Assembly (NCBI GenBank): GCA_030524745.1
Contig: JAUNGC010000003.1
Coordinates: 62,001 to 126,000, forward strand
From: Eubacteriales bacterium
GTDB taxonomy: Bacteria > Bacillota > Clostridia > Lachnospirales > Lachnospiraceae
Reading direction: 5' to 3'
DNA: 64,000 nucleotides
Part shown: piece after piece, positions 5,415 through 50,497 of the stretch
Numbering within the stretch: the stretch's first letter is position 1
Layout of the letters: each line of letters starts with the position of its first letter
Translations under genes and position numbers: made by a program
Notes under the pieces: model-generated
What the model was told of the DNA's origin: nothing
The model's database searches: none
What the model saw: only the letters and a program-made list of their open reading frames with translations

Positions 5415-5446
5415 AAAAAACCGCCTCAAGCTATTGCCTGAGACGG
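5415..5446 (-). terminator. Regulated terminator of the T-box leader
   Basis: On the minus strand CCGTCTCA pairs with TGAGGCGG across a 10-base loop and is followed by TTTTTT. It lies 14 bases downstream of the T-box sequence, as expected for a terminator competing with the antiterminator. Confidence 0.85.
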
Positions 5447-5680
5447 TAATTTACATTATCGCGGTGCCACTCAAATTGACCAAAGGTCCTCTCGCTTCAT
5501 GTACAGTCATACATGCCGGCTGGATAACGGGTCCGGGTTCCCGCCGACGCCTACTGTTAGTTCGGGCCGGCCTCGGAAGTCCATTCATCAGTCATTCCCA
5601 TACCGCAATCCCACCGCCTGCGGCTCTCTGTGCTGTTCGTGAGTGACTACTCCTCTTCCTCATCGGTTTTTCCTGTTGTT
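5415..5680 (-). ncRNA. T-box riboswitch, tryptophan specifier predicted
   Basis: Minus-strand landmarks in order: the Stem I GATGAGGAAGAGGAGTAG element (5647-5664), an AGAGAG distal element, a specifier loop reading GAATGGAC with TGG at 5581-5583, the T-box core AGTGGCACCGCG (5460-5471) and the terminator. Uncharged tRNA pairing with specifier and T-box should stabilise the antiterminator and switch on the transporter. TGG followed by A in the GAA context points to tRNA-Trp. The specifier is read by eye and is the least certain part. Confidence 0.85.
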
Positions 5681-35966: not shown

Positions 35967-37373
35967 TTAATCCCCCAAATCCGCTCCCGACAATTCCAGA
36001 TCCAGTATCCGCGCCAGCGGAACACAGGCATTATAACATTCCTCATATGTATTGGTCTGCGCTCCCATCTCAATCAGAAGATATCTGGGTTTTAAATGCA
36101 TATTATACCGGTATCCCTTCAGATAAATCCGCCGGGTCAGCCCCGGATAATATTCGTTGCACAACGCCTGCATCTGAAAGGAAAACGCCAGATTATCCGC
36201 GATATTCTCATTTGGCAGGTATTCGATGTCCCCGTGCTTTCTGGTGCGGGACAGGCCGTTAAAAAACATGAACATGGCCGTATCCTGGCCCTCGATCTGC
36301 GTCACCAGTTTCCGGTCCGCCGCCACCTCATCGCGGTGCAGATCAATCACCACTTCAATGCTCGGATATTCCTCCAGCAACTGTTCCAGAGCGGGCAGAG
36401 AATTGTTATACGCATAATCCCTGTTTTCCACGTCATATTTTCCCAGATGATGCATGACATTGTAACCGTACTGCTCCCGCAATATCTGTGTCAGCACCTC
36501 GCCCACTCCCATGATCGTCGTGCTGTCGTCCCCCGGCACCGAATCGATAAAATCTTCCTGTGAATGCGTGTGATAAACCAGAATCTGCGGCTGATCGTCC
36601 GTCCTTTTTTCAATGGAGAGATCCCGGCCCAGCAGCGCATCCAGATTCAACTGGCTGCTGTCAATCACCGTGGAAGCATCCACCGCATAAAATTCCTTCA
36701 CCAGCGGGTCAAATTTCCGGTAATAATCCCACTGATATTCCTCCACCTTTTCAGAATTCAACGCGCCCGCCATACCGCTGCTGAAAAGCCAACTGCCGAT
36801 CTCGCCCTGCGCATTGATCCCGCTCTTTGCAAGTTCCTCCTCAGTTTCCGACATATTCCCCGATGCAGCGCCATCCATCTGCGCCCCATCCCGGGAATCA
36901 TCTCCACCATCTTCTTTGCCTTTAAGTGCCTGACTATTCTCCTCTTCCAAAAGCTTCGCCAATTCACCATCCACCTGTATTCTGCCGTCGGAAGTTTCCG
37001 GCGTTCTCATTTCTTCTTCCGTGAGCGCATCCGTATATTCGTCCTGCCCTTCCGCCCGGATGATATCTTCATAGGTATCCCTGCTTTCCAACTGCAGATT
37101 GATGGTCTTTTCTCTTCCATATAAATGTAAAATCGGGAACTGGCTGGTAATGACCTGCCATATTCCCGTCTCCTGTGTTCCGGCGGCAAAAGAAAGAGCC
37201 GGGCACCAGAGAGAAAGCGCCGCATTCTCTACCTGTCCCAGCGCAAGCTGTCCGATGCCCTCTTCCTTCTTGTCTTCCTCCTTTTTAGGGAGCGAAAGTT
37301 CAATCACGCAAACAGCCAGAAGCGCCGCCGTCACTCTATATAAAATTCGTCTGACCCTGTCTTTTTTCTCCAT
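35967..37373 (-). CDS. spoIIP: Stage II sporulation protein P
   Basis: A 468-residue membrane-anchored peptidoglycan amidase and endopeptidase that, with SpoIID and SpoIIM, drives engulfment of the forespore. An N-terminal membrane segment lies at residues 11-29, followed by a long acidic linker (about 115-200). The catalytic domain has ILVYHTHSQEDF (zinc His) and VVIDLHRDEVA, then TQIEGQDTAMFMFF. No clear ribosome site precedes the ATG, so the start is uncertain. In Firmicutes it usually directly follows gpr; here a large palindrome separates them. Confidence 0.92.
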   Translation of the reverse strand: MEKKDRVRRILYRVTAALLAVCVIELSLPKKEEDKKEEGIGQLALGQVENAALSLWCPALSFAAGTQETGIWQVITSQFPILHLYGREKTINLQLESRDTYEDIIRAEGQDEYTDALTEEEMRTPETSDGRIQVDGELAKLLEEENSQALKGKEDGGDDSRDGAQMDGAASGNMSETEEELAKSGINAQGEIGSWLFSSGMAGALNSEKVEEYQWDYYRKFDPLVKEFYAVDASTVIDSSQLNLDALLGRDLSIEKRTDDQPQILVYHTHSQEDFIDSVPGDDSTTIMGVGEVLTQILREQYGYNVMHHLGKYDVENRDYAYNNSLPALEQLLEEYPSIEVVIDLHRDEVAADRKLVTQIEGQDTAMFMFFNGLSRTRKHGDIEYLPNENIADNLAFSFQMQALCNEYYPGLTRRIYLKGYRYNMHLKPRYLLIEMGAQTNTYEECYNACVPLARILDLELSGADLGD

Positions 37374-37467
37374 GAGAAAATATATGCGCCCGTGATCCCG
37401 GTTTATTCATAACCTTTCTTTCGCCGCCACCTATACGGTCTTCGCTATCCTTTCATTATAGCTTGCA

Positions 37468-37810
37468 GTCTGTCTCTGCGTCAGCCGGGCCGCCTTCTTT
37501 CCGAACCGCTGCCTGCCGTTTCTTCCTCCCGCGGCGCGCAGACTTTTGAAGCCATGCCTTATATGCAAAACGGTGAAATCCCCCAAAGCGTCCTGCCGTT
37601 CCTGTCGCCCGGTCCGCACTGTCTGAGCAGGCGAATCTTTGATTCGCTGCGAGTTTGCGGACCGGACGGCAGTCCGGAACGGAAGGACGCTTTGGCGGCG
37701 ATTTCCCGTTTTGCATATCGGAATGGCGAAAAAGCCTGCGCGCCGCGGGGGGGAAGAAACGGCAGGCGGCGATCCGGAAAGAAGGCGGCCCGGCGTCCGC
37801 AAAAACAGAC
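37468..37810. repeat. 343-bp near-perfect palindrome between gpr and spoIIP
   Basis: The two halves are inverted copies centred on 37639. Matching blocks include 37484-37503 with 37775-37794 (20 bp), 37511-37526 with 37752-37767 (16 bp), 37561-37573 with 37706-37718 (13 bp) and 37583-37594 with 37684-37695 (12 bp). The centre is GCGAATC-TTT-GATTCGC. Transcribed either way it would fold into one hairpin about 170 bp long. It begins ten bases past the gpr stop. No convincing protein is coded. The region 37374-37467 between it and spoIIP holds nothing recognisable. Confidence 0.92.
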
Positions 37811-37820
37811 CGCGGATTCT

Positions 37821-38732
37821 TTATTCTTCCAGTTCCAGCGCGATATTGATCCCTTCCGAAATGGTAAAACTCAGCCTCTTAATCATTTCATCGATATCCT
37901 TGCTCGTCACATACATATTGTTCAGTTCCGACAGCGCCTGGGGATGCTCCCGCGTCATAATCATCTGCACGCCGTTTTCCTTTTCCAGCCGTTCCATAGC
38001 GTCCCCCACAATGGTAGCTGCGTCCACCACGGTCGGCACGCCGATCGCCAGAACCGGAACGCCCAGCGATTCTTTTGTCAGCGCATTTCTGTGATTTCCC
38101 ACGCCGGAGCCCGGATAAATGCCGGAAGTAGTCACCTGAATCGTCCGATTCAGGCGGCGCGTGCTGCGCGCCGCCAGCGCATCCACCACAATCAGAAAAT
38201 CCGGCTGCGTTTCGGTCACAACGCCGTGAATGATTTCCGCGCTTTCCATGCCGGTTTTCGCCATCACGCCCGGCACAATACAACTGATCAGATGCATTTT
38301 TTCCTTATTATAAGCGGCTTTTCCAAACTCCATCACCACATGCCGGTTTACAAAAAGATTATCCGCCACATGGGGTCCCAGCGCGTCCGCCGTCACATCC
38401 CGGTTACCCAGCCCCACAATCAATATAGACTGTTCCTTTTCCCGGTCGGGCATCACGCTCCTTAACTGTCTCGCCAGTTCCTTTGACACTTCCCGGTGGT
38501 ACCCTTCATCCTGTTCCGCCATCGCCGGAGCTTCCAGCGTAATATAGGTACCGATCGGCTTTCCCATGATCCTGGCCCCGTTTTTTGTTTCGATCTTCAC
38601 CCGGGTGATGTGTATTCCCGTTTCCTCCTTCTCTTCTTCCTCAAAGATGACTCCGTGAATTTCCCCTCCGGAGTCCCCGATTCTTTCCCGGTCCTCCAGC
38701 GCCAGGTCCGTCCTCACCGTAAAACTGCTCAT
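37821..38732 (-). CDS. gpr: Germination protease (GPR)
   Basis: A 303-residue aspartic-like protease that degrades small acid-soluble spore proteins at germination. The propeptide region has FTVRTDLALEDRE. Core motifs include IVGLGNRDVTADALGPHV, VPGVMAKTGMES, DFLIVVDALAARSTRRLNRTIQ and TSGIYPGSGVGNHR. GAGGGAG precedes the ATG. It is divergent from rpsT and lies upstream of spoIIP, the order seen across spore formers. Confidence 0.95.
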   Translation of the reverse strand: MSSFTVRTDLALEDRERIGDSGGEIHGVIFEEEEKEETGIHITRVKIETKNGARIMGKPIGTYITLEAPAMAEQDEGYHREVSKELARQLRSVMPDREKEQSILIVGLGNRDVTADALGPHVADNLFVNRHVVMEFGKAAYNKEKMHLISCIVPGVMAKTGMESAEIIHGVVTETQPDFLIVVDALAARSTRRLNRTIQVTTSGIYPGSGVGNHRNALTKESLGVPVLAIGVPTVVDAATIVGDAMERLEKENGVQMIMTREHPQALSELNNMYVTSKDIDEMIKRLSFTISEGINIALELEE

Positions 38733-50381: not shown

Positions 50382-50497
50382 AAAAAAATCCGCCTGAATA
50401 CTTCCTCATCCTCTCAGTCAGTACCCAGGCGGTCGATCTTTCCCGGACATGTTCCCCGTGGTGAACTCCACTGATCCGCCAGTCACACGTTCCGTCC
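50382..50497 (-). ncRNA. ZTP (pfl) riboswitch with terminator
   Basis: The minus strand reads GTGTGACTGGCGGATCAGTGG (split here as GTGTGACTGG and CGGATCAGTGG), then CACCACGGGGAACAT and the pseudoknot segment CCGCCTGGGTA, all hallmarks of the pfl motif. CCGCCTG (50426-50432) is shared with a terminator hairpin whose other arm, CAGGCGG (50390-50396), is followed by seven Ts (50382-50388). ZTP or ZMP binding, which signals folate shortage, should prevent termination and raise purO and transformylase expression. Confidence 0.9.

Follow-up and report, generated by a model that had tools for sequence, protein, structure and literature searches.

REP, BIME and REPIN elements, which are moved by RAYT (TnpA-REP), are dispersed intergenic palindromes that often lie at gene ends, and one of their strands is recognised in folded form. 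Integron attC sites are conserved in structure over sequence, are located behind stop codons and have one strand that is active as a folded single strand. The skipping-rope motif (RF02924) is a hairpin motif of several phyla. In PMC3733652, REPs are given a length of 20-40 bp and GTAG REPs are said to often provide the stop codon of the flanking ORFs, and PMC2229807 describes ERIC/RU-1, YPAL/RU-2, Correia/NEMIS, RUP and the Rickettsia palindromic elements as non-autonomous, 100-200 bp long and giving rise to transcripts that form long stem-loops. It has been argued that template switching creates and maintains hairpin stems (PMC8794818).

The window analysed here (the whole stretch of 64,000 nucleotides, from a genome of the Lachnospiraceae) contains a GC-rich palindrome of 349 bp (37465..37813) situated between gpr, its upstream neighbour (encoding germination protease; 37821..38732, minus strand; Pfam PF03418, Peptidase_A25, E 1.7e-74), and spoIIP, its downstream neighbour (35967..37373, minus strand; Pfam PF07454, E 2.7e-56). 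The element is described below in the orientation of its motif, the plus strand, which is antisense to both genes. Compared with its own reverse complement it matched at 79%, and an inverted-repeat search listed six pairs, most of them sharing one axis (e.g. 37465-37530/37748-37813, 37525-37547/37730-37752 and 37561-37573/37706-37718, which are 85%, 91% and 100% complementary, respectively). The RNA fold of 37460-37820 reached -266.6 kcal/mol, whereas 100 dinucleotide-preserving shuffles averaged -145.0 (sd 5.7) and none of them folded as well. The palindrome that was reported in the initial annotation is therefore real, but its length is 349 and not 343 bp, and "near-perfect" does not describe arms that match at 79-85% around conserved unpaired core positions. 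Its start ten bases past the gpr stop was confirmed (stop codon 37821-37823, minus strand), as were its high GC content and the lack of a convincing protein; the ORF list held no convincing frame, for which reason a protein-coding gene in the palindrome was rejected.

The hairpin can be divided into a left outer arm (37465..37550, plus strand), defined by the inverted repeats and by copy comparison and with a sequence mostly specific to this copy, a conserved core (37551..37727, plus strand) of 70 consensus pairs with conserved internal loops, defined by an alignment of 26 copies, a consensus fold and pair counts with controls, and a right outer arm (37728..37813, plus strand) that ends 7-10 nt from the gpr stop codon. 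The core carries an apical motif with a 5' half (CTGTCTGAGC, 37619..37628, plus strand) and a 3' half (GCGAGTTT, 37649..37656, plus strand), both recurring in relatives, and between these halves a variable apical stem-loop (37629..37648, plus strand) of which the length and sequence vary in the alignment and the pairing is kept.

A BLASTN search with the palindrome returned 47 matches in the same genome (G000), so that the multiple copies which the initial annotation had proposed to look for were indeed there. A covariance model built from the 26 copies recognised 30 separate places, of which the weakest scored 90.9 bits and the other 29 at least 155 bits (further rows of the model output repeated these 30 places on the opposite strand), and the core in the window matched at 180.7 bits (G000:C33:99551-99727). 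The copies, about 30 in number, lie intergenically and form hairpins of 207-530 nt as measured by an arm-extension script. As these are 30 related, non-identical copies at different places, an assembly chimera is very unlikely, and as in the 26 aligned copies the two arms come together with the asymmetric loops that separate them, the idea of two separate repeats in head-to-head position found no support. In half of the copies (15/30) the 3' neighbour in motif orientation is on the opposite strand and its stop codon is no more than 30 bp away from the hairpin (genes were predicted from the longest ORFs and not taken from an annotation); in the opposite orientation none of the predicted genes ended 30 bp or less before the hairpin, save for one overlapping ORF of 94 aa. 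The palindrome overlapped the end of the neighbouring gene in three copies (by 12, 6 and 19 nt), and in two copies an apparent terminator was seen by eye between the gene stop and the element.

Several other structures were observed near the copies. At G000:C39:32498-32569 there is a left half-element that runs from arm to tip and then straight into the stop codon of a histidine-kinase-like gene, which looks as if the right half was deleted, and a right half-element adjoins the copy on C44. At the smpB locus (L048/L363) the palindrome reaches into the conserved last codons of smpB, and by eye the reverse complement of these codons was found beyond the far arm, so that host sequence is present there in inverted form. 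Beside two copies (in the flanks of L061 and L045) a short hairpin repeat (GTAACAGTTCRGC...GCYGAACTGTTAC) was seen by eye. Another type of long hairpin, whose apex differs (GGACCGTTAAAAA...TTTTTCGAGCGNAAGCGTGTCC), was found twice in the G000 stretches examined (L340 around 10390, minus strand, and L361 around 8085, plus strand) and also in the genus relative G007, downstream of smpB (L368).

Direct adjacency of gpr and spoIIP, which the initial annotation had taken to be the normal state, was found in all 12 other genomes of the genus, where the spacer measured 21-112 nt and the element is absent; in the window genome the distance from the gpr stop to the start of the spoIIP match is 448 nt. 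A GCATATATTTTC block just before spoIIP is common to the window genome and its relatives. Since all 12 relatives are empty at this place, the comparison shows a recent insertion, with entry of the element between gpr and spoIIP after the lineage split from its relatives in the genus. Spacers of relatives lacking any similarity to the arms had been named beforehand as grounds for refutation; such spacers were found, but they point to recent insertion and not to an artefact. On the minus strand a 7-bp direct repeat, GAATAAA, brackets the inserted stretch of 418 bp: its upstream member (37820..37826) includes the present gpr stop codon, and its downstream member (37402..37408) is followed, 15 nt after its TAA, by the GCATATATTTTC block. 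The second GAATAAA could be the former gpr stop codon just as well as a target duplication, an ambiguity that arises because the gpr frames of the relatives end elsewhere (those of the closest relatives stop at varying places, up to 18 codons later). Across the copies the longest flanking repeat had a mean of 6.6 nt versus 6.1 nt in a control region, a test that gave no clear excess of target duplications in general. The smpB site was without the element in the nine relatives with a fully readable downstream spacer (two genomes had no smpB match and one locus was read in the wrong frame). Dispersed multiple copies together with empty sites in relatives, as in a classical MITE, were thus found (30 copies; 12/12 empty).

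The covariance model matched in 7 of the 13 genomes of the genus, the window genome included, and the copies in the genus have the tip in common and not the stems. With one genome per genus, the exact tip pattern was found in 21 of the family's 250 genera and the reversed control pattern in none; in one of the 21 (G112) the site formed no hairpin, and in two others the arms were weak. In a scan of named genomes the matches listed placed the pattern in contigs of at least Pseudomonadota, Bacteroidota, Nitrospirota, Desulfobacterota-like organisms and Bacillota. Nine of ten stem pairs beside the motif could be formed in 72 of the 124 genome-contig matches listed versus 41 of 4000 random places, and a looser test (8/10 pairs) was passed by 115 of the 144 matches listed and by 225 of 4000 random places. 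Where, among the matches listed, an opposite-strand gene had its end 20-150 nt ahead of the motif, the distance was 82-123 nt in 30 of 46 cases (p 5e-6 versus a flat spread), and many of these neighbours resemble housekeeping genes, as judged by eye from their sequence. In the wide set a gene stop was present within 150 nt in motif-antisense orientation for 38 elements and in the other orientation for 12. A scan of viral contigs gave 53 stretches with the motif pattern; 9/10 stem pairs were present in 10 of 54 matches, and a stricter 16-pair test was passed by 2 of 54, which is about chance.

Near-identical copies were found in two other genomes: G063 has eight places with copies 90-98% identical over ~90-395 bp in different surroundings, and G166 has two places with near-identical copies and different flanks, a pattern that shows them to have spread recently. 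The recently spread G063 set also shares its ends, whereas the ends differ among the G000 copies. The reading of the palindrome as a miniature or otherwise dispersed mobile element, one of those offered in the initial annotation, is supported by the 30 copies, the empty sites in relatives and these recently multiplied relatives in another genome.

Another finding was that the core changes its sequence in a concerted manner. In the 26-copy alignment it spans ~176 nt with 46 invariant columns, mostly at the internal loops and at the tip (CTGTYTGAGC, a variable stem-loop and GCGAGTTT). Of all core cells 97.0% were paired, versus at most 44.7% when the partners were slid by 1-3 columns, and all pairing measures collapsed upon such a slide. 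Two-sided compensation was observed in 44 of the 70 core pairs versus a mean of 20.0 in shuffles, so that the test for compensating changes suggested in the initial annotation turned out strongly positive. The alignment shows a core that alters its letters yet retains its pairs. The outer arms are unlike in most copies, yet mutually paired, and a subset of copies was seen by eye to have a CCTGCCGCCCTGTCCTGCC-like outer-arm stretch in common.

Compensatory base changes, a criterion for structured non-coding RNAs, were thus present (44/70 pairs), and two-sided compensation is the usual mark of RNA. However, selection on the fold might not be what preserves the complementarity, that of the outer arms above all: template switching, or copying of one arm from the other, in the course of replication or transposition could do so, in line with the argument in PMC8794818. 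The outer arms, mostly copy-specific, well paired and free of strand bias (see below), fit such copying, as do the three palindromes that overlap gene ends and the mirrored last codons of smpB. Two-sided changes numbered 15 between look-alike copies and 3 between orthologues, although the look-alikes are also more diverged. Nevertheless, under copying from arm to arm the asymmetric internal loops would be expected to disappear, but they are conserved throughout the core, and such copying should not prefer GU to AC; we consider it an improbable explanation.

The strand on which the fold matters can be judged from the mismatches, a G.U and an A.C mismatch being one event viewed from opposite strands. 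On the motif strand the core contained 71 GU versus 20 AC (p 7e-8; 72 core pairs, picked without favouring GU or AC), the core pairs from RNAalifold gave 70 versus 19, and in two orthologous copy pairs in relatives there were 26 WC-GU versus 9 WC-AC changes (p 0.006). The outer arms in G000 had no clear bias (GU 90 versus AC 70, p 0.13), those of the window copy had 5 AC versus 1 GU, and three pairs of look-alike copies at different loci had 17 GU versus 16 AC changes. These counts show a constraint on the core that acts on the motif strand, antisense to gpr-spoIIP; the fold of that opposite strand looks selected, and the outer arms may lack a strand constraint. The difference between G.T and A.C could partly be due to mutation instead of selection, and the wobble bias is compatible with RNA as much as with DNA.

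The core GU excess on the antisense strand makes an mRNA structure of gpr-spoIIP unlikely. A terminator, stabiliser or attenuator in the gpr-spoIIP transcript that uncouples both genes would be suggested by the location of the palindrome, downstream of gpr and upstream of spoIIP as these are transcribed, where it would fold in the mRNA, and by the promoter-like site that follows it (CTGACG-18-TATAAT, 10/12; 37455..37484, minus strand), a weak sigma-70-like match at the downstream foot of the hairpin, directed towards spoIIP, which could serve that gene (the consensus scan found 1 versus 0.5 (sd 0.7) expected). The wobble pairs of the core, however, belong to the other strand, a scan of 37300-37900 found no terminator-like site, on which ground we rejected the terminator reading, and the element is lineage-specific and repeated at unrelated genes. 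Such a cis-acting role is highly improbable in our view, and the suggestion in the initial annotation of a structured RNA that uncouples spoIIP from gpr did not withstand the strand counts (71 GU versus 20 AC).

The motif strand might itself act as RNA, either as a structured non-coding RNA that has promoters of its own or as an RNA that is reverse-transcribed into the genome, as would agree with the compensatory changes, the GU preference on this strand and the conserved internal loops. Yet a consensus scan found no excess of promoters in motif direction (14 of 29 copies versus 11.4 expected), a T-tract stood behind the hairpin in one of 29 copies, and most of the copies are situated antisense directly behind genes, a position for which no dedicated promoter would be anticipated. 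None of the Rfam families attained its gathering score on the hairpins tested (in the window, at 12 loci with E<=1 and at 10 loci with E<=0.1); the hairpin at L108 gave a sub-threshold match to MIR7994, a microRNA precursor (41.3 bits, gathering score 100). Elsewhere in the window a T-box leader (5436-5672, minus strand) and a ZMP/ZTP riboswitch (50416-50496, minus strand) scored above the Rfam gathering score. The skipping-rope RNA was rejected, since among four motif-bearing genomes there was one match (in G227), off every listed motif site. In searches of the open-access literature (PMC) the motif was not encountered, and none of the papers listed for its letters dealt with the subject by title. 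With the reverse transcriptase counts given below, we regard an RNA role of the motif strand as rather unlikely.

In 28 of the 30 G000 copies the motif strand is the C-rich strand (GC skew, p 9e-7). Such uniformity with respect to GC skew does not hold in general, because the same orientation was found for only 15 of 24 copies in genus relatives and 65 of 115 in the wider set. Because there is no shared promoter in motif direction, no terminator behind the hairpin and a near-uniform replication orientation in G000, we favour single-stranded DNA over RNA as the active form.

We also searched for a protein that could move the element. None of Y1 transposase, reverse transcriptase and integron integrase follows the motif in its distribution, in samples that are small and consist of draft genomes and that argue against a need for these enzymes without proving their absence. 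Y1_Tnp (PF01797) occurred in 13 of 20 motif-positive and 12 of 20 motif-negative genomes, and G000 has just a broken scrap of 53 aa (28 bits, two stops). For RVT_1 the counts were 17 of 20 genomes with the motif and 14 of 20 without it, and the three motif-positive genomes in which it was not found are G096, G133 and G240, two of which are called 92-100% complete; on this ground reverse transcriptase was rejected as a necessary mover, and the same counts speak against an RNA that is reverse-transcribed into the genome. The integron integrase was above the curated TIGR02249 cut-off in none of 20 motif-positive genomes, and weaker tyrosine-recombinase matches were present in all 20. The R boxes of attC (RYYYAAC/GTTRRRY) were found at none of 30 hairpin feet, where the random expectation is 0.00 and solely their presence would be informative. 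Membership of a known class of mobile palindromes, i.e. REP/BIME mobilised by a Y1 (RAYT) transposase or integron attC, would account for the many copies, the strand-specific fold and the hairpins behind stop codons; nevertheless, with Y1_Tnp equally common with and without the motif and neither R-box pairs nor integron integrase present, both were rejected and we give this explanation hardly any credence.

On balance, the palindrome in the window is probably, though by no means certainly, one copy of a non-autonomous dispersed mobile element that acts via a folded single strand. The unit would be a hairpin of 300-500 nt with a conserved tip and conserved internal loops, of which the motif strand would be exposed single-stranded and then fold, and the folded tip and loops would be recognised by an enzyme responsible for moving or copying the element, with a preference for sites just behind stop codons or terminators. 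For the host, the hairpin would stand between gpr and spoIIP and might contribute part of a promoter for the latter; no dedicated host function would be required. Counting against this mobile single-strand reading, none of the three mobilising enzymes that were looked for (Y1, reverse transcriptase and integron integrase) was found to go with it, target duplications show no general excess, the orientation bias of G000 is missing elsewhere, the outer arms (90:70) and look-alike pairs (17:16) show no clear bias, and the arms of the window copy have more AC than GU.

More tentatively, and as a possibility that we would rate below an even chance, the tip (ACTGTYTGAGC, a stem-loop and GCGAGTTT) might define a cross-phylum class of mobile hairpins that is recognised in single-stranded form and has spread behind stop codons without RAYT, integron integrase or reverse transcriptase, its stems being free to vary as long as they are paired. 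A conserved sequence is the feature by which most of the known palindromic repeats of bacteria are recognised, whereas here the tip and internal loops are conserved and the letters of the stems turn over, and the same tip is found behind what look like housekeeping genes of several phyla. Should the element move as a folded single strand, this provides a new place to seek the mobilising enzyme, and the recently multiplied G063 and G166 sets make the idea of a mobile strand testable. It also follows that strong covariation in intergenic hairpins need not imply a functional RNA.

In comparison with the described systems, the family is like REP/BIME/REPIN elements in its many copies, its hairpins behind stop codons and its strand-specific fold, but it is 300-500 nt long (copies 207-530 nt) where the REP unit is 20-40 bp (PMC3733652), and it does not co-occur with Y1_Tnp. 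With the MITE-like repeats, as described in PMC2229807, it shares a non-autonomous nature and a long stem-loop. MITE-like repeats are conserved in sequence including their ends and often have terminal repeats and target duplications, whereas in the family of the window conservation falls on the tip and inner loops, the outer arms mostly differ between copies, and target duplications show no general excess. Its conservation of structure over sequence resembles that of attC and of attC-like structured DNA (e.g. the OTH-22-1 motif, PMC8632094), but foot boxes are absent (0/30) and the conserved part is the apex. Mobile palindromic repeats are thus a known kind of element, and what is unusual about this one is how long it is, its conserved tip, a core that is strand-specific and how widely it is distributed.
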